64,000 bases of DNA from Mycolicibacterium lutetiense (GTDB taxonomy: Bacteria > Actinomycetota > Actinomycetes > Mycobacteriales > Mycobacteriaceae), in contig NZ_JAGIOP010000001.1 of the NCBI RefSeq assembly GCF_017876775.1, positions 1,550,001 to 1,614,000 of the forward strand, in the 5' to 3' direction. Made by a program: the position numbers and the translations under genes. Positions 54,393-64,000 of this stretch are shown piece by piece. Every line of letters begins with the position of its first letter. Position 1 is the stretch's first letter. The notes beneath the pieces were generated by a model. The model was given only the letters and a program-made list of their open reading frames with translations. It had not been told where the DNA came from and made no database searches.

Positions 54393-54935
54393 CTAAGCGG
54401 CCGGCGGCACAGGTTCGGCGGGCTCAGGTTCGGCGGGCGCGGGGACGGTGTCGGTGATGGTGCCGGGTACCGGGACGTTCAACGGGGCGCCGCACGGCAG
54501 GCTGCCATAGGTCGGGTCATCCTTGGGCCTGGTCAACCGTGGGCCGACGAAGGTATCGGCCTGGGCGACGATCTGGTCGTCCACCAGGATCTCGCAATGC
54601 AGGTTCGCCGAGTAGGGCCAGTCGATGCGGACGGCCATGCCGGCGGTCTCCGGATTGGACACCACACCGGTGGCTTCGAAGATCCGGCCGGGCAGCATGG
54701 ACGGGTCGGCGGTATTGATGTTGTCGTCGTCGATCTTGTACGCGATGGTCGCGTTGCGCGATACGCCGTCGATCCTGGCGCGGTAGGTGACGTTGTGGAG
54801 TTGCTGGTCGGGCAGTGGCTCCACCTGAGGAGGCGCCTCCGGGTCGGCCTGTGCCGCGGCGGGAATCAACAGTGCGCCGGTGAGCAGTCCGGCCAGCGCG
54901 GGGAGGATTCCCCAGGGGTACTTAGCTGCACTCAT
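54393..54935 (-). CDS. Secreted protein of unknown function
   Basis: 180 residues. The signal peptide MSAAKYPWGILPALAGLLTG continues with ALLIPAAAQADPEAPP, giving a likely signal-peptidase I site at AQA-DP. The mature part (about 150 residues) begins proline-rich and contains VTYRARIDGVSRNATIAYKI, RIDWPYSANLHCEILVDDQI and a late Cys (GSLPCG), so one disulfide is likely. It ends in a proline/glutamate repeat (PAEPEPAEPVPPAA). It resembles other small mycobacterial exported proteins with a beta-sandwich feel, but no family can be named. Confidence 0.78.
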   Translation of the reverse strand: MSAAKYPWGILPALAGLLTGALLIPAAAQADPEAPPQVEPLPDQQLHNVTYRARIDGVSRNATIAYKIDDDNINTADPSMLPGRIFEATGVVSNPETAGMAVRIDWPYSANLHCEILVDDQIVAQADTFVGPRLTRPKDDPTYGSLPCGAPLNVPVPGTITDTVPAPAEPEPAEPVPPAA

Positions 54936-54946
54936 GAATCCCGACC

Positions 54947-55520
54947 TTACGCTCCCCGCCACGTGAGGGCCATTCCGTTGCCGGACAGCCACCGATCCAG
55001 GTGGTATCCGCAGCTCGCCAGGCCCTCGATCGCGGTGACCGCGGTTTGCACCGCCTGCTCGCCGACCTCCGGACTCAGCAGCCCGTGGCGGACCGCGGTG
55101 AGCAACTCGTCGACGTCGCACAGCTCGACCTCGCGGCCGGTGCGGACCACGAGGTCCAGGTAGTGGTCCTCGGAATGCCACACGGTCGGACCGGCGGTAT
55201 AGCTGCCGATGTCGAGGTAGAAGTCCTGATCCCGTTCGTGGCCGGGGCTGAAATGGAACACACTCGCCCGCAACCCGAGCGCCGGCAGCAGCCACGATTC
55301 CAGATAGTGGAACTGAGCCCGACCCGGTGTCGGCCGCGCCATGTAGAGCCCCCAGGGCTCAACTGTGTAGACGTCGACGGCCCGCACGATGCCCTTCGGA
55401 TCGGTGTTTGTGCGGGCCACCAGGTCGAATATCTCGTGTTTGGGTGGGTGGATGGGCCCAACACTACGCGGGGAGTGAACACCGCGGAACTTGTCGGTGC
55501 ACAGCTCTACGCTGGTGAGC

Positions 55521-55522
<2 letters not shown>
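54947..55522 (-). CDS. DUF402-family protein
   Basis: 191 residues if ATG 55522 is used; a GTG at 55420 would give 157. DUF402 features are [60 protein letters not shown] and [20 protein letters not shown], with the acidic cluster thought to bind a divalent metal as in FAU-1/YgaC-like RNA-associated proteins. The longer version would overlap the uvrB start by two bases and contain the uvrB promoter on its other strand. The pre-GTG residues HPPKHEIFD look coding, so I keep the longer form with reserve. Confidence 0.72.
55491..55513 (+). promoter_or_regulatory. PafBC-dependent (RecA-NDp type) promoter of uvrB
   Basis: TTGTCGGTG at 55491-55499, eight bases, then TACGCT at 55508-55513: an exact match to TTGTCRGTG-N8-TANNNT. 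The box ends seven bases before ATG 55521, so the transcript is leaderless. The regulators PafB and PafC are encoded at 4.5-6.5 kb. Confidence 0.85.
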
Positions 55523-57692
<2,170 letters not shown>

Positions 57693-57693
57693 T

Positions 57694-57715
57694 CCGGTGT
57701 TGACCTCAACACCGG
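57694..57715. promoter_or_regulatory. Perfect 22-bp palindrome in the MFS-pump promoter
   Basis: Ten-base arms CCGGTGTTGA and TCAACACCGG with two central bases. It lies two bases after the uvrB stop, covers a possible -35 box TTGACC (57700-57705) and is 19 bases from the TAACGT -10 box (57725-57730), which itself ends seven bases before GTG 57738. This is the geometry of a repressor site. Confidence 0.65.
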
Positions 57716-57737
57716 TTGAGCTTCTAACGTCGTTGTC

Positions 57738-59129
57738 GTGACCGACACCGTGACGCCTGATACCGGGACCTGGCGGCAGTTGTTGGGTGCCCGGTATCTG
57801 GGCGCCTCTACCGTGTTGGCCGGCGGCGTGCTCCTCTATGCAACCAACGAGTTCCTGACCATCAGCCTGCTGCCCAGTGCGGTGGCCGAGATCGGCGGGC
57901 AGCGGTTCTACGCCTGGGTGACGACGGTCTATCTGGTCGCTTCGGTGATCGCCGCGACTACGGTCCACTCGCTGCTGATGCGGCTTGGAGCGCGGCAGGC
58001 ATATCTCTTGGGGCTCACGGTGTTCGGTGTCGGAAGCCTGGGATGCGCATTAGCCCCGAGCATGGAGGTGTTGCTCGCCGGGAGGATCGTGCAGGGCTTC
58101 GCCGGCGGACTGTTGGCCGGCCTGGGGTACGCGGTGATCAATACTGCACTGCCGAATACCTTGTGGACCAAGGCATCTGCGTTGGTGTCGGCGATGTGGG
58201 GCGTGGGCACACTGATCGGCCCGGCGGCGGGCGGGTTGTTCGCGCAATTCGGGCATTGGCGGTGGGCGTTCGGTGTGCTGGTCGTGTTGACCGTCGCGAT
58301 GGCCGTCTTGGTGCCCGTCGCCTTGCCGGCCGGGGGCGCGGCATCGGCTGTGACGCCCGGCATTCCGGTGTGGTCGCTGGCTTTGTTGGGTACCGCGGCG
58401 ATGACGGTCAGCGTGGCGGGTATTCCGCACGACTGGCGGGGGACCGCAGCACTACTGGGCCTCGGGCTGGTGCTGATGGCCGGGTTCCTGTTCGTCGATC
58501 GTCGCGCCGGGGCTTCGGTCCTGCCGCCCAGCACATTCGGCCCGGGTCCGCTCAGATGGATCTACCTGAGCCTCGGCGTGCTGATGGCCGCCACCATGGT
58601 CGTGATGTACGTGCCGCTGTTCGGTCAACGCCTGGCACACCTGACGCCGGTGATGGCCGGATTCTTCGGTGCGGTGTTGTCGGTCGGTTGGACGGCGGGG
58701 GAGATCGTCAGCGCGTCGCTGCGGAACCGGCGGGTTATCGTGCGCACGGTGGCGTTCGCCCCTGTGGTGATGGCCGCGGGCCTGGCCGCCGGTGCGGTAT
58801 TGATCCGGGACGGAATGACACCGTGGCTGGTGGTGGCGTGGGCTGTGGCACTCATGGTCACCGGTGCCGGAATCGGTATCGCGTGGCCCCATCTGTCCGC
58901 GTGGGCGATGGGTAGCGTCGACGATCCGGCCGAGGGACCGGCCGCGGCGGCGGCGATCAACACCGTGCAATTGATCTGCGGGGCGTTCGGGGCGGGATTG
59001 GCGGGCGTCGTCGTCAACCTCAGTGCCAACGGTGACGCGTCAGCGGCGCGCTGGCTGTTCGGCTCATTCGCAGTGTTCGCCGTGGCTGGTGCCCTCGCCT
59101 CGTTCCGGTCCACCAGCGGGGCTCACTAG
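57738..59129 (+). CDS. MFS transporter, probable drug efflux pump (Rv1634-like)
   Basis: 463 residues, about 14 membrane segments. MFS hallmarks include LLMRLGARQAYLLGLTVFGV (motif A loop), AGRIVQGFAGGLLAGLGYAV, and GVGTLIGPAAGGLFAQFGHW (motif C, antiporter). It belongs to the DHA2 type by length and helix number. GTG 57738 is leaderless behind the palindromic operator. The regulator is not next to it (the nearest regulators are the GntR protein at 53.7 kb and the TetR at 22.6 kb), so it is controlled from elsewhere. Confidence 0.88.
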   Translation: MTDTVTPDTGTWRQLLGARYLGASTVLAGGVLLYATNEFLTISLLPSAVAEIGGQRFYAWVTTVYLVASVIAATTVHSLLMRLGARQAYLLGLTVFGVGSLGCALAPSMEVLLAGRIVQGFAGGLLAGLGYAVINTALPNTLWTKASALVSAMWGVGTLIGPAAGGLFAQFGHWRWAFGVLVVLTVAMAVLVPVALPAGGAASAVTPGIPVWSLALLGTAAMTVSVAGIPHDWRGTAALLGLGLVLMAGFLFVDRRAGASVLPPSTFGPGPLRWIYLSLGVLMAATMVVMYVPLFGQRLAHLTPVMAGFFGAVLSVGWTAGEIVSASLRNRRVIVRTVAFAPVVMAAGLAAGAVLIRDGMTPWLVVAWAVALMVTGAGIGIAWPHLSAWAMGSVDDPAEGPAAAAAINTVQLICGAFGAGLAGVVVNLSANGDASAARWLFGSFAVFAVAGALASFRSTSGAH

Positions 59130-59206
59130 CCCGGGCTCTCGCGCGCGATGAGTTTCAGCGGCACCGCGAGTCTCATCCGTATTGGACCGATACGAGGAGT
59201 GACTCG

Positions 59207-59971
59207 ATGTCCCTGACACTCAATGCCTACCCAGACGTCGTCACCCGCGGCGAGTGGCGACAGGCGCGTACCAAACTACTGGCCGCCGAACGCGAGGCGA
59301 CCCACCTGCGCGACGCGGTCAATGCCCAACGGCGCCGGCTGCCAATGGTGAAGGTGGAGAAGGACTACACGTTCGAGGGGCCCGGCGGTGAAGTAAAGCT
59401 GCTCGACCTGTTCGAGGGCCGCAGTCAGCTCTACATCCACCACTTCATGTGGATCGATGCGATCGACGCGGGTTGCCCGAGCTGTACTGCCGCGGCTGAT
59501 CTGACCTTCACCGAAGAGGATCGAGAACTGTTGCACGGCAAGGATGTCACGTTCGCCTGCGTGTCTCGGGCACCCTACGCCAGCATCGCGGCGTACCGCG
59601 ACGTCCACGGTTGGACGTTCCCGTGGTACTCGTCGCGCGACGGTGACTTCACCTATGACTTCCACGTGACGCTCGATCCGGCTCGCGCGCCGATCGAATA
59701 CAACTACCAGTCCGTCGACGAGCTCCACGATGCCGGCTTCACCGACGACGACCTCCGGGGCGACTGGCCGGGAGCCAGCGTCTTCCTGCGCCGCGGCGAT
59801 GAGGCCTTCCACACCTACTCGACCTTCGCCCGCGGACTCGACCACTCCGCGGTGGGGTACCCCTTCCTCGACCTCACCCCGTACGGGCGGCAGGAACCGT
59901 GGGAAGACTCGCCGGCCGGGTGGCCGCAGGGTGGGCCGGTGGTCGGTAGGCCGGTGGGGGACTCCGACTAG
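59207..59971 (+). CDS. DUF899 thioredoxin-like family protein
   Basis: 254 residues. DUF899 markers are REWRQARTKLLAAEREATHL, RRRLPMVKVEKDYTFEGP, LFEGRSQLYIHHFMW, GCPSCTAAADLT (a CxxC pair in the thioredoxin position) and YDFHVTLDP with FHTYSTFARGLD. Members are predicted redox proteins without a known partner. GAGGAGT seven bases before the ATG is a good ribosome-binding site. It stands alone between the MFS gene and tRNA-Cys. Confidence 0.85.
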   Translation: MSLTLNAYPDVVTRGEWRQARTKLLAAEREATHLRDAVNAQRRRLPMVKVEKDYTFEGPGGEVKLLDLFEGRSQLYIHHFMWIDAIDAGCPSCTAAADLTFTEEDRELLHGKDVTFACVSRAPYASIAAYRDVHGWTFPWYSSRDGDFTYDFHVTLDPARAPIEYNYQSVDELHDAGFTDDDLRGDWPGASVFLRRGDEAFHTYSTFARGLDHSAVGYPFLDLTPYGRQEPWEDSPAGWPQGGPVVGRPVGDSD

Positions 59972-60036
59972 TTAGTGATCATTGAGATCGAAACTATGGG
60001 CCGAGGCCGGATCGGCTGGCACAGTAGCCAATCGAT

Positions 60037-60107
60037 GCGGGTGTGTCTGAGTGGCCAGGAACCGGCCTGCAAAGCCGTCTACACGGGTTCGAATCCCGTC
60101 ACTCGCT
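60037..60107 (+). tRNA. tRNA-Cys (anticodon GCA)
   Basis: Acceptor stem GCGGGTG/CACTCGC (one G-T pair), a three-pair D stem, anticodon loop CTGCAAA with GCA at 60069-60071, T arm ACGGGTTCGAATCCCGT and discriminator T at 60107. CCA is not encoded. The anticodon stem has one C-T mismatch at its outer end. Confidence 0.95.
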
Positions 60108-60118
60108 CAATGAGGAGA

Positions 60119-60153
60119 AAGCGGCACCTCGACCCGAGGTCGAGGTGCCGCTT
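60119..60153 (+). terminator. Terminator hairpin after tRNA-Cys
   Basis: A perfect 16-bp stem (60119-60134 with 60138-60153, core GCGGCACCTCGACC) and a CGA loop, 11 bases after the tRNA. It lacks a T run. Confidence 0.85.
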
Positions 60154-60186
60154 CCCGTCGCTATCGCTGCGCTAGGCAGGTGAAAG

Positions 60187-60264
60187 TCACTGCTCTAAAC
60201 GGTCTTTGACCTTGTTTGAAGCGTCTACGGCGACCTTCTTGTTGCTGACCCAGGTGGCGGATCG
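60187..60264 (-). other. In-frame extension beyond the HdeD-like stop codon
   Basis: Directly after the TAA at 60265-60267 the same frame reads 25 further codons, RSATWVSNKKVAVDASNKVK then DRLEQ, to TGA at 60187. It is Lys/Asp-rich and helix-like, unlike random GC-rich DNA, and may be a tail lost by a nonsense mutation or gained by readthrough. Confidence 0.4.
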
Positions 60265-60870
60265 TTAACCGGCCGAGGTCAACGAATCGATGCCCTTCTC
60301 AACCTTTTTCAGGCCGCTACGAAGCTTGACCGCCTTGATGATCTGCGCAACGCCGATGATGACGAGCGAGACGCCCGTGACAATGGTCAGCATCACGATC
60401 GAATCGAACGGCCAAACGAGCACGACCATTCCGGCGATCACGGTGATCACGCCGAGAACGATCTGCCAACCCCGGCCGGGAAGCCCGGGCGCGCCTGAGG
60501 CGACGGCGATCTCGGACGCCCCCTGGAAGACGAATCCGATGCCGATCCAGATCGCGAGGAACAACACGCCGTAGCCTTCGTCGAAATGGCGGAACGCCAG
60601 CACTGCCAGCACCACCGAGATCGCACCGCTGACGAACAGCAGGGCCCGACTGCCGAACCTCTCGTGGAGGCCGAAGGCGGACGCCACCTGCAGGATTCCC
60701 GATACGAAGAGGTAGGCGCCGAACAGTACGGCGGCCACCAGGATCGACACCCCCGGCCAGAAGAGGACCAGGCAGCCAAGGAGTACTGCCGAGAGGCCCC
60801 ACAGAAGTGCCGTTTGCCACAGGGCGGTCACCAGCTTCGGGGTGACCAACGAGTCGGTTGACGCATTCAC
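60265..60870 (-). CDS. DUF308 / HdeD-family membrane protein
   Basis: 201 residues from GTG 60870. Six membrane helices in three pairs, e.g. LWGLSAVLLGCLVLFWPGVS, VLFGAYLFVSGILQVASAF and IVLGVITVIAGMVVLVWPFD, with the repeated WPxxS turns of HdeD acid-resistance proteins. The C-terminus is basic (KLRSGLKKVEKGIDSLTSAG). The first residues MNASTDSLVTPKLV are cytosolic. No catalytic motif. The frame continues in coding-like fashion beyond its stop codon (see the neighbouring entry). Confidence 0.85.
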   Translation of the reverse strand: MNASTDSLVTPKLVTALWQTALLWGLSAVLLGCLVLFWPGVSILVAAVLFGAYLFVSGILQVASAFGLHERFGSRALLFVSGAISVVLAVLAFRHFDEGYGVLFLAIWIGIGFVFQGASEIAVASGAPGLPGRGWQIVLGVITVIAGMVVLVWPFDSIVMLTIVTGVSLVIIGVAQIIKAVKLRSGLKKVEKGIDSLTSAG

Positions 60871-61234
60871 GGTGAAGATTCCTTTCGTTTCGACTGCTCG
60901 GTAAGTGGAAGTCGGTTAGGGCCGAATGGTTGGCCCAAAGGGTTCGCGGAGAGAAATTCCAATTCTCACAACGGCATTCGCCACACCGATGATGGTAGCC
61001 CGCCGGGCGGGTTTCGTCTTTGGTCTGGCGAACATCGAATCGCGCCCGACGGTGTTTGCGCGAACAGGCTCCCCGGGTCGTCATGGATGCCAATCGAGTG
61101 GCAGGCCATCATTGCTGGGCAGCCATGGTGGAGTTGGTCGGCGAACACCCCGATATCGGTACCGTCGAAATGGCCGGAGCGTTGCCGGGGGTCGGGGTGG
61201 AGTAGCCGCCCGCCGGCTCGGCGATAATGCTGCG
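60871..61234. other. 364-base gap between HdeD-like and thioesterase genes
   Basis: It must hold the divergent promoters. A GATAAT box at 61223-61228 serves the thioesterase. A 40-codon plus-strand frame at 61083-61205 (MDANRVAGHHCWAAMVELVG and on) is codon-biased but lacks a ribosome-binding site, so I do not call it a gene. No repeat or RNA gene was seen. Confidence 0.5.
61223..61228 (+). promoter_or_regulatory. Predicted -10 box for leaderless thioesterase gene
   Basis: GATAAT ends six bases before GTG 61235, favouring it over ATG 61241. Confidence 0.5.
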
Positions 61235-62086
61235 GTGCCCATGCTGCTTCTTGCCGACATCCTGTCCACGCTCGATCTGGTCGAGTCGGGTGACGGCATC
61301 TTCGTTGCCGAACAACGGGACAACCCCAGCCATCACATTGTGGGTGGGCATATCTCCGCCCAGGCGCTGATGGCGGCCAGCCGAACGGTTCCCGGCCGAC
61401 TGCCGCACAGCCTGCACGTCTATCTGCTGCGCGCCGGTGACGCCCGGTATCCGGTGCAGATGGAGGTCAGCAGCCTGCGGGACGGCGGATCGCTGTCCAC
61501 CCGCCGGGTCATCGGCCGCCAAGGCGGTGAGGTGTTGCTGGAAGCGCTCGTCTCGTTCAGCGTTGACATGGACGCCGCCGATTACCATCAACCCCGGCCT
61601 GTGGTGCCTGATCCAGAGACTCTGCCCCCGGTGGAGGAGCAACTGCAGGCGTTTGCCGATGAGGCCGGTGGGTACTGGGTGAACCCGCAGTGGATCGAGC
61701 GGCGCTACATCGATCCGCCGCCGCGGCTGGCGATCGATCTGCCCGAACCGCCGGCGCGCACCCGGATGTGGTGGCGCGTGGGCGAACCGGTAACCGATGA
61801 TCCGATCGTCAACAGCTGTCTGCTGACGTACTTTTCGGGCACGGCGTTGCTCGACACGACGGTGACGATGCGGCGTGCGACGCAGGTGAGTGTTTTTTCG
61901 GCGCTGATCGACCTGGCCATCTGGTTCCACCGCCCCGCTGATCTGACCGATTGGGTGCTGTCTGACCAGGTTTCACCCAGCGGCATCAACGGGCGCGGCC
62001 TGGCCAGTGCGACGCTGTACAACCGCGCCGGGCAACTCGTGTGCTCGACAGCGCAGGAGATGTACTTCGGCCGCCGCCGCGACTGA
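61235..62086 (+). CDS. Acyl-CoA thioesterase II (TesB-like)
   Basis: 283 residues, a tandem double-hotdog protein. The first hotdog has IVGGHISAQALMAASRTVP and LHVYLLRAGDARYPVQMEV with SLSTRRVIGRQGGEVLLEAL; the second has NSCLLTYFSGTALLDTTV (the catalytic Asp region), AIWFHRPADLTDWVLSDQVS and GRGLASATLYNRAGQLVCST. It hydrolyses medium- to long-chain acyl-CoA. The C-terminal Q-x-x-x-FGRRR end is typical. It resembles mycobacterial TesB1. The IS605-type element begins about 15 bases after its stop. Confidence 0.9.
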   Translation: MPMLLLADILSTLDLVESGDGIFVAEQRDNPSHHIVGGHISAQALMAASRTVPGRLPHSLHVYLLRAGDARYPVQMEVSSLRDGGSLSTRRVIGRQGGEVLLEALVSFSVDMDAADYHQPRPVVPDPETLPPVEEQLQAFADEAGGYWVNPQWIERRYIDPPPRLAIDLPEPPARTRMWWRVGEPVTDDPIVNSCLLTYFSGTALLDTTVTMRRATQVSVFSALIDLAIWFHRPADLTDWVLSDQVSPSGINGRGLASATLYNRAGQLVCSTAQEMYFGRRRD

Positions 62087-62103
62087 CTCATACTTTCTTC
62101 GGC

Positions 62104-62133
62104 GCTATCCCTCGACTTCAGTCGGGGGATAGC
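62104..62133 (+). repeat. Left-end hairpin of the IS605-type element
   Basis: GCTATCCCTCGA pairs with TCGGGGGATAGC (12 pairs, one G-T) around loop CTTCAG. Such subterminal hairpins are the TnpA recognition sites. Confidence 0.8.
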
Positions 62134-62198
62134 CGATCCCATGGTTCGGTCCGCGTAGCAGACAGTTGATGTCGTAGGCGTGGTTTATCGTGAGGTTC

Positions 62199-62516
62199 AT
62201 GCAGTACCAGTCGACACGTAAATCGGTGTTTTCGGTGCACTACCACGTGATTTGGTGCCCGAAGTACCGCCGTGATGTGTTGCGTGGGCCGATCCAGACG
62301 CGGTTGAAGCAGATCATCGGTGAGGTGGTCGCCGAGATTCTGAAAGGGCGCTCGTCGCGGCGCCTTAGGCAGGAGTTCGCGCATCTGGCGAGGATGAAAT
62401 GCTTGTGGTCACCATCGTGGTTTGTCTCTACGGTGGGCGGTGCGCCCTTGGAGGTGGTTGGCCGCTACGTGGAGAATCAGAAACCTACGGCTGGGCGAAA
62501 GGTGACGGCTGCATAG
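62199..62516 (+). pseudogene. tnpA: TnpA (Y1 transposase) with in-frame deletion of the HUH motif
   Basis: 105 residues from ATG 62199, against about 130-140 for the family. The N-terminal FSVHYHVIWCPKYRRDVL and the C-terminal LKGRSSRRLRQEF, WSPSWFVSTVGGAPLEVVGR and YVENQK (catalytic Tyr) are well preserved. Between them, after IIGEVVAEI, the usual 30-40 residues with the HVHLL metal-binding motif are absent although the frame is kept. Without the HUH histidines it cannot cut DNA. The stop lies two bases before the tnpB ATG, so the transcript still reads into tnpB. Confidence 0.85.
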
Positions 62517-62518
62517 CG

Positions 62519-63748
62519 ATGGCGCACCGTTACCGCATGTATCCGACCGCTCAGCAGGCGGTGTTCATGTTGGAACGGCACTGTGCCGATGCCCGTTACG
62601 TGTGGAATCTTGCTGTCGAGCAGTTCAATTGGGGGCGCTCTGGTAGATCGGCGCCGGGTCCGGCGGCTCGGCAGAAACAACTCGCTGCAGCCCGGCAGGC
62701 GTTTGAGTGGCTGGCGGCGGGGTCGTCGGCGGTGCAGCAGCAGGCCCTGCGGGATTTCGACCGCGCCGTGGCGGGATTCTTCACAGGCACCCATCGCCGG
62801 CCGACGTGGCGACGTAAACATCTCGATGAGGGCTTCTGCATTCGCGACAGCCGTGTCGAGCCGGTGAATCGTAAATGGGCGCAGGTGTTCGTCCCGAAAC
62901 TCGGGCTGGTCAAGTTGCGGCTCTCTCGCCCGCTGCCGGCCGGCAAGCTCGGCATGGCCCGGGTCACCTGCAAGGCGGGCCGCTGGCACGTCAGCTTCCC
63001 GGCTCCCCAGCCAGGGGTGCCGGCTGCGGCGGGCCGTGAGGAGTGCATGGTCGGAATCGACCGGGGCGTGAAAACCACGCTCGCACTCTCGGATGGCACG
63101 ATGCTGCGGGCCCCGGTCATGCGCCGCGTCGAGCAGAACAAGCTGATCCGGCTGCAGCAGCAGCTGGCGCGTTGCCGAAAAGGCAGTATCCGCCGAGGCA
63201 AGGTGAAAGCCCGTATCGCCACACTGCACGCGAGAGTGGCCGATCGGCGCCGTGACTGGATCGAGAAAACCACCACCAGAATCACGGCCACCTATGGTGT
63301 GGTCGCGGTGGAGAAACTGCCGACTCGGAACATGGTGCGGGCACCGAAACCCAAGCCCGACCCCGAGGTGCCGGGTCACTACCTGCCGAACGGGAAAGCC
63401 GCGAAATCCGGTTTGAACCGGGGGATCTATGCGAACTGCTGGGGTGTGATCGCCCAGCGTTTGGAACACAAAACGTCCGCGTCCGGTACCACCCTCATCG
63501 AGGTGCCGGCCGCGTACAGCAGTCTGGAGTGCCGCAACTGTGGCCACAGCGTGAAGGAAAACCGTAAGAGCCAAGCGGAATTCCAGTGCGTGAAATGTGG
63601 CCACCAGGACCACGCGGACCTGCAGGCAGCCAACACCATCCTCGCCCGGGCCACCCGGCCCGCGCACACCTCCGGACTGGAGGCAACACCCGCCACCACG
63701 GGTGTGCTCGCGCAAGCGAGAAGACCCGATGACGCACACGCGGCATAG
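62519..63748 (+). CDS. tnpB: TnpB RNA-guided nuclease
   Basis: 409 residues, full length. The N-terminal helix-turn-helix/WED part has RYRMYPTAQQAVFMLERHCA and AVQQQALRDFDRAVAGFF with RPTWRRKHLDEGF. RuvC residues are Asp181 (VGIDRGVKTTLALSDG), Glu265 (VVAVEKLPTRNM) and Asp367 (HADLQAANTILARA). The zinc finger uses Cys338, Cys341, Cys357 and Cys360 (CRNCGHS; CVKCGHQ). All key residues are present, so it should be an active nuclease guided by an omega-RNA made from its own 3' end and the right-end hairpin. It is related to the ancestors of Cas12. Codon use is a little lower in GC3 than the neighbours. Confidence 0.92.
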   Translation: MAHRYRMYPTAQQAVFMLERHCADARYVWNLAVEQFNWGRSGRSAPGPAARQKQLAAARQAFEWLAAGSSAVQQQALRDFDRAVAGFFTGTHRRPTWRRKHLDEGFCIRDSRVEPVNRKWAQVFVPKLGLVKLRLSRPLPAGKLGMARVTCKAGRWHVSFPAPQPGVPAAAGREECMVGIDRGVKTTLALSDGTMLRAPVMRRVEQNKLIRLQQQLARCRKGSIRRGKVKARIATLHARVADRRRDWIEKTTTRITATYGVVAVEKLPTRNMVRAPKPKPDPEVPGHYLPNGKAAKSGLNRGIYANCWGVIAQRLEHKTSASGTTLIEVPAAYSSLECRNCGHSVKENRKSQAEFQCVKCGHQDHADLQAANTILARATRPAHTSGLEATPATTGVLAQARRPDDAHAA

Positions 63749-63752
63749 GGAA

Positions 63753-63775
63753 TCCCGCGATCTTCAGTCGCGGGA
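63753..63775 (+). ncRNA. Right-end hairpin; expected 3' scaffold of the TnpB omega-RNA
   Basis: TCCCGCGA (63753-63760) pairs with TCGCGGGA (63768-63775) around TCTTCAG, five bases after the tnpB stop. In studied systems the guide RNA overlaps the tnpB 3' end, includes this hairpin and takes about 16-20 bases of flanking DNA as guide, here beginning near 63784. The RNA itself is inferred. Confidence 0.55.
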
Positions 63776-63784
63776 GAGGGTCAC

Positions 63785-64000
63785 TCATCGGGTGGACTTG
63801 ACCACCTGGGCGAAGTTGAACTGCCAGCGTTCCACGATGTGGAAACCCATGCTCTCGGGTACCTGATAGGCCGGAGCGCGGTCCAATCGGGGTCCGGGCT
63901 GCAGTCTTTCGCCGCTCTGTCGGCTCGGTACTGCGAGGTCGCGTTCGGACACCGTCCACAAGACCGTGCAGCGACGCACCTGGTCGGCGACGCCCCAGAT
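63785..64000 (-). CDS. C-terminal part of an unidentified protein (continues outside the window)
   Basis: Seventy-one codons, ending in TGA at 63785-63787. Visible text includes IWGVADQVRRCTVLWTVSER, RLDRAPAYQVPESMGFHIVE and RWQFNFAQVVKSTR. No motif allows a family name; there is no membrane segment. The IS605-type element lies directly 3' of the stop, so the insertion has not damaged the protein. Frame and codon bias support a real gene. Confidence 0.6.
   Translation of the reverse strand: MWGVADQVRRCTVLWTVSERDLAVPSRQSGERLQPGPRLDRAPAYQVPESMGFHIVERWQFNFAQVVKSTR

Follow-up and report, generated by a model that had tools for sequence, protein, structure and literature searches.

The window analysed here is a 64,000-nucleotide stretch of the 6.35-Mb genome G000 (genus Mycobacterium in the wide sense). 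We consider it probable that it carries a recently immobilised IS605-group element, the same allele of which is common to two species through a recombined 14.9-kb tract. The element is 1,697 bp long (62088..63784; it and all its parts lie on the plus strand), and the named records nearest to it come from Mycobacterium and Mycolicibacterium.

The bounds of the element follow from a related genome, G021, in which the same neighbours flank an element-free site with a precise joint, CGACTGAC being joined directly to TCAGCGGGTGG (also given as CGACTGAC joined to TCAGCGGGTGGACTTG); the occupied site is therefore composed of TGAC, then 62088...63784, then TCATCGGG. The first-pass annotation had placed an IS605-type unit here, and its end at 63784 stands, while its start at 62100 is refined to 62088 by the G021 empty site and by the ends of family members. 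TGAC (62084..62087, plus strand), the target or cleavage tetramer and putative TAM, is present at the G021 empty site and stands before the left end (LE) in 11 of the 12 other copies, the remaining one having TAAC. The TGA within it terminates the left neighbour, an acyl-CoA thioesterase gene (61241..62086, plus strand) that is open up to its own stop, and whose start we chose within a longer frame (60926-62083) that gave the Pfam match. The right neighbour, encoding a convergent PMT_2-like protein (63785..64000, minus strand, running on to 65320 outside the window; Pfam match at the cut-off, 26.1 bits), has its stop as TCA at 63785, and both neighbour reading frames terminate as they do at the G021 empty site. 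No TnpB relative or Y1_Tnp match was found in G021. Left of the thioesterase gene, a segment (60109-61223) that includes a DUF308 (HdeD-like) gene beside tRNA-Cys is unmatched in G021 and may form a small island at the tRNA; Rfam at the gathering threshold returned nothing but the tRNA over the window.

The tnpA frame (62190..62516, GTG start) encodes 108 aa, compared with 140 aa in the five nearest homologues among the matches listed, and its alignment with homologues places a 32-codon in-frame deletion over the HUH motif: residues 50-81 of the homologue P0005, including His63 and His65, are missing, and the catalytic Tyr (Tyr125 of P0005) is retained. Against the solved ISHp608 TnpA, window residues 5-50 align with 6-51 and 50-99 with 83-133, leaving ISHp608 residues 52-82 (31 residues) without a counterpart, and Pfam finds Y1_Tnp as two separate stretches. 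The first-pass annotation had described an in-frame deletion that removes the metal site and spares the Tyr, which holds, its size of about 30-40 residues now being 32; it had also named an equally short TnpA in the nearest relatives as evidence to the contrary, and a short TnpA as the family norm is ruled out by the 140 aa of the five nearest. A gap at the two His columns occurs in none of the 120 homologues listed (of 594 found), 97 of which have both His and the Tyr, at least one of the three being missing in the other 23.

tnpB (62519..63748) encodes 409 aa with Pfam matches to OrfB_IS605, Cas12f1-like_TNB and HTH_OrfB_IS605, all over their cut-offs. The RuvC triad (D181, E265 and D367) and the CxxC/CxxC zinc ribbon (C338/C341 and C357/C360), by which a TnpB RNA-guided nuclease is recognised, are both present, with the numbering that the first-pass annotation had given for the triad and four cysteines, and all these residues are invariant in the 31 sequences aligned (the window and 30 chosen from 120 listed). 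The tnpB of genome G369, outside these 31, has lost the RuvC Glu and contains three stops. TldR proteins are a nuclease-dead TnpB family that has lost RuvC catalytic residues, and the window protein, which has all three, is not of this type. D181 and E265 align with D191 and E278 of ISDra2 TnpB. Extracts of PMC8612924 report that losing D191 or E278 compromises interference by ISDra2 TnpB. Both tnpB and the RNA-coding 3' end look intact. G000 has this TnpB-like locus and five others.

Several features place the element in the IS605 group: a Y1_Tnp-family tnpA beside tnpB (PF01797, 79.7 bits; PF01385, PF07282 and PF12323 over cut-off), insertion 3' of a fixed tetramer (TGAC) and subterminal hairpins at the LE and the right end (RE). 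The catalytic HUH of TnpA is absent, both His falling inside the 32-residue gap, and the element is, on its sequence, a member of the group by descent and not a functional one. It is not an IS1341 (TnpB-only) element, which would have no tnpA-derived sequence, as the 108-aa tnpA remnant is there.

The two ends of the element are also altered. The LE tip (62088..62091) reads TCAT, identical to 63785-63788, where 12 of 12 other LE copies have CG[AG]A; after the tetramer the window has TCATA and these copies CG[AG]AA, two of the 12 (both in G369, with a common left flank) probably representing one insertion. The LE hairpin (62105..62131) has CTAT as its 5' foot, compared with CAAG in 11 of the 12 other copies and CGAG in one; this foot, by analogy with IS608, is presumably the LE guide. 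The RE cleavage site (63781..63784) is TCAC, compared with TCAA in all seven relatives with an RE. A 6-bp direct repeat, ACTCAT, lies at both element edges, and we know of no target duplication on IS605-type insertion; since the distance from TGAC to the remainder of the LE is unchanged, base replacement is favoured over target duplication. In G369, LE copies on contigs C278 (L071) and C233 (L236) have a nearly identical left flank, with the three-stop, Glu-less tnpB beside one of them. Among the matches listed, plasmid records from M. ulcerans, M. liflandii and M. pseudoshottsii (H5-H9, H23-H30) match the family over the RE alone (about 150 bp) or the LE alone (49 bp).

A Pfam Y1_Tnp search found no HUH-intact Y1 transposase in G000 or in G020, the other genome with the allele, each of which has one copy of the element. 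The matches in G020 are solely the two halves of the tnpA remnant, and the other match in G000 (C2:1246575) is a frame without the N-terminus and the second HUH His. This frame belongs to a second IS605-type unit (C2:1246575-1247948; L182, L033), in which a broken tnpA adjoins an open TnpB of 416 aa, so that G000 has two separate elements with tnpA broken and tnpB open. With its HUH lost, both ends altered and no intact Y1 found, the window element looks unable to move by its own means, and we infer that transposition activity is absent, in agreement with its earlier description as immobilised.

The tnpB 3' end and the RE together form a putative omega-RNA scaffold (63620..63784) with a predicted fold of -80.1 kcal/mol (z -4.94), a value equalled by none of 200 shuffled sequences. 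The fold is conserved in 8 copies and overlaps coding sequence; covariation is weak, with both-side changes in 5 of 66 pairs. The putative guide sequence is the right flank (63785..63804), its position being assigned by analogy with ISDra2 as described in extracts of PMC8612924. A 22-base target pattern (TGAC and 18 guide bases, at most 3 mismatches) was matched in 23 of 396 genomes, and the reversed control pattern in one. G000 and G020 were matched only at the element's right junction, with TCAC replacing TGAC, and therefore contain no other target within 3 mismatches. The search listed 26 places, and the 20 with loci that were read comprise 14 empty sites between the same two genes, the two junctions of G000 and G020, and four sites elsewhere. 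The 14 orthologous empty sites have TGAC (12) or TGAT (2), and all of them differ from the guide at position 4, which is the single mismatch in five, a difference that counts against easy cutting in these other species and might prevent it beyond the G000/G020 lineage. The predicted cutting of element-free copies by TnpB is anatomically possible.

The tnpA remnant has a Ka/Ks of 0.08 against G336 and 0.06 against G259, and the intact pair G336/G259 one of 0.06. The remnant therefore evolves like an intact tnpA, indicating that the deletion is young and has left too little time for the open tnpB to be informative. Pairwise Ka/Ks values between the window tnpB and those of five relatives (0.13-0.19) were rejected as proof of selection on tnpB, their divergence being almost wholly older than the deletion. 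Four changes separate the tnpB genes of G000 and G020, of which two are nonsynonymous (K132M, A376V) and two are synonymous; the G020 gene is open with its catalytic residues unchanged, and thus the inactivated sister tnpB that would have weakened the first-pass reading was not found. Among 11 relatives, tnpA is HUH-intact in five, has a His substituted in two and was not found in four. Where tnpA is dead or undetected, tnpB is open in four of the six (G117b, G355a, G245, G340) and broken or cut short in two (G369, with three stops and the Glu lost; G281, which matches only residues 1-270), and G355b has the reverse pattern of an HUH-intact tnpA with a broken tnpB (two frames, early end), which counts against preferential tnpB retention. 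Given this reversed case, the tnpB genes broken in two of six and a remnant that evolves as intact tnpA does, the suggestion that selection kept TnpB and not transposition is unsupported.

A search of 396 genus genomes with the element DNA gave an ungapped full-length match in G000 and G020 only; in the other long matches the extra tnpA block is present, or tnpA is missing. G020 represents a second species (91-93% identical to G000 in the sampled DNA) and carries the same allele at the corresponding site, as the sister-genome search suggested in the first-pass annotation was meant to reveal; the many independent strains that were to support retention are not in evidence, G020 having the allele via one exchanged tract and the TnpB cluster consisting of 8 sequences on 3 contigs. 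Around the locus the two genomes are 92.8% identical over 460 kb aligned, and in a second sample (151 kb aligned out of 200 kb from a different contig) 91.2% identical, compared with 99.8% over the 14.9 kb from 54,483 to 69,405 (54483..64000 inside the window). The 30 differences in this tract are distributed as 6 in the 7,605 bp of the left arm, 4 in the 1,697 bp of the element and 20 in the 5,621 bp of the right arm; similarity within the element is close to that of its flanks, and it therefore travelled with them. Among 597 1-kb bins (611 kb aligned, the larger sample being centred on the element locus), identity reaches at least 99% in 16 of 454 around the locus and 1 of 143 in the second sample, and 14 of these 17 are the tract. 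From G021, G000 and G020 are each about 11% distant, both in the tract and over 47 kb to its left, whereas they are 0.08-0.64% apart from one another in the tract and 7.3% apart left of it, so that purifying selection does not explain the tract. As the allele lies inside it, the immobile element would have crossed species by homologous recombination, and as far as sequence can establish this, the allele is shared through recombination. Donor and recipient are indistinguishable, since the distance of each genome to G021 stays near 11% inside the tract and through most of the stretch compared. Contamination or misassembly was rejected as a likely cause of the sharing, since the contigs that enclose the tract are 5.7 Mb (G020) and 1.86 Mb (G000) long.

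Other genes in the tract are uvrB and those for an MFS transporter, DUF899, DUF308 and Usp-family proteins, and uvrA begins just past it. A mosaic patch just right of the element (63,886-64,109, extending past 64000 in L064) has 7 differences in 224 bp, indicating that no single simple event produced the tract. Farther right, a 2.7-kb segment (66238-68903 on the window scale, L064 10239-12904) is flanked by direct repeats of about 106 bp (87%) and is missing in G021. A second, smaller near-identical run with G020 is found on G000 C1 at +116 to +121 kb on the window scale. In the second sample the single bin of at least 99% is the outermost one, the next two having 98.5 and 98.4%, and a further tract may begin there beyond the sampled DNA. 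This edge (L185 1-4000, C2:3044001-3048000, with bins of 99.8, 98.5 and 98.4%) is 5-9 kb from the G000 TnpB locus C2:3052986, for which no relative was found in G020.

The proposed mechanism starts from an element that would no longer jump, would be inherited vertically, and would spread sideways only when a recipient chromosome recombines with element-bearing DNA. TnpB with its omega-RNA would still recognise TGAC and the right-flank sequence, which is the element-free form of its own site (conserved, and situated between two convergent stop codons), and would spare the occupied site, where the right junction reads TCAC. Extracts of PMC8612924 place the TnpB cut 15-21 bp from the TAM, so that cutting an empty site would yield a left end with TGAC and target bases that mismatch the LE. 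If the element were copied from such an end after only partial trimming, target bases would remain at the LE tip and the spacing would not change; TCAT corresponds to the first four guide-target bases. We put forward as a possibility that the TCAT tip is a scar of TnpB-cut homing; it may equally have another origin. That the transposase-less TnpB acts as a cross-species chromosomal homing endonuclease, with repair copying the element and its flanks and leaving TCAT as the scar, seems to us unlikely on present evidence.

As the cause of the shared tract, conjugal mosaicism is likelier than TnpB homing. We lean towards neutral hitch-hiking, in which distributive conjugal transfer (DCT) or another route exchanged the 15 kb independently of TnpB, with the element as a passenger. 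DCT donor segments range from 59 bp to 226 kb and average 33.8 kb in extracts of PMC3706393, which puts the tract within the ordinary mycobacterial conjugal size range, and DCT between mycobacterial species is reported in extracts of PMC7916490. Near-identical stretches of smaller size that lack the element were also seen, at +116 to +121 kb and on the margin of the second sample, and the tract holds other selectable genes (uvrB, the MFS transporter and the Usp-family protein). Hitch-hiking does not, however, predict the LE-tip patch, and it sits less easily with the sole run of at least five near-identical bins in 611 kb aligned containing the element. The rival is TnpB-driven homing, a conceivable but doubtful cause, by which the empty allele would have been cut and repair from element-bearing DNA would have brought 15 kb of flanking DNA across species, with TCAT as the scar. 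The element is near the middle of one long tract (the chance for a random bin is about 14/597), TGAC is kept at 12 of the 14 orthologous empty sites (its TGA being a stop codon), and TCAT at the LE tip repeats the start of the guide target over four bases, a match of three changed bases that has a chance of about 1/27; with cutting 15-21 bp from the TAM (extracts of PMC8612924), the left side of the break would retain target sequence 3' of the TAM. The LE-tip match nevertheless amounts to three informative bases, the RE change from TCAA to TCAC and the LE-foot change are left unexplained, and the guide mismatch at position 4 affects all 14 sites of other species. The locus is moreover one of six tries, no relative of the five other TnpB-like loci of G000 having been found in G020, and the larger sample was centred on it.

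The sharing of an immobile element with an open tnpB by two species would also suit host domestication, with the TnpB-omega-RNA pair kept for a host function at this locus. This we regard as improbable: the deletion is young with no sign of selection since, the RuvC triad is intact, unlike that of nuclease-dead TldR proteins, and only G000 and G020 of the 396 genus genomes have the ungapped full-length match. The idea in the first-pass annotation that TnpB may serve the host thus found no support. HUH-intact tnpA genes in family members elsewhere could in principle mobilise a non-autonomous element in trans, but continued mobilisation by a Y1 transposase is very improbable, there being no HUH-intact Y1_Tnp match in G000 or G020, one copy in each of these genomes, and an altered cleavage site and LE foot. 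The reading we retain is that of a recently immobilised element carried between two species in a recombined tract.

The evidence known to us on TnpB aiding the persistence of an insertion sequence after transposase death comes from laboratory systems and plasmids, and the main published study of TnpB retention is reportedly that of Meers et al. 2023. The locus described here offers a natural test of whether TnpB alone aids the persistence or spread of a transposase-dead insertion sequence, its value lying in the absence of any HUH-intact Y1 found in G000 and G020, the known empty site and a tract with defined edges; the predicted LE-tip scar can be checked in other TnpB insertions. If the tract is incidental, the locus is one more decayed IS605 copy. 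Among ranked extracts of the open-licence PubMed Central literature, our search found no case of cross-species TnpB homing and no precedent for a cross-species tract around an immobile TnpB element or for the LE-tip patch. Decayed IS605 copies and TnpB homing are both known; a natural cross-species case would be new.

In its architecture the element resembles IS608 and ISDra2 of the IS605 group, with tnpA 5' of tnpB, hairpins at the ends, a short fixed sequence 5' of the insertion, and a TnpB with a RuvC triad and zinc ribbon, but differs from the IS605-group relatives compared in the lack of the HUH in its tnpA and in its LE tip, LE foot and RE cleavage site. Extracts of PMC9956272 distinguish "decays" of IS605 from IS1341, and the open tnpB without a usable transposase is common to decayed IS605 copies, IS1341-type TnpB-only elements and the window element; in contrast to these, the window tnpA remnant is one open frame with its Tyr, and a recombined tract has made it common to two species. 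Extracts of PMC8612924 and PMC11870625 already describe retention guided by TnpB and gene drive, and with these systems the locus shares a guide given by the right flank, a TAM given by the target sequence and an empty site as the predicted target. In these extracts, TnpB homing is proposed for the joint that an active TnpA leaves or shown for plasmids, whereas a natural chromosomal cross-species case is here only inferred. As in the mycobacterial DCT mosaics of PMC3706393 and PMC7916490 (extracts of both), a donor tract has replaced homologous recipient DNA; unlike those mosaics, the sampled 611 kb contains one long tract, with a TnpB element near its centre.
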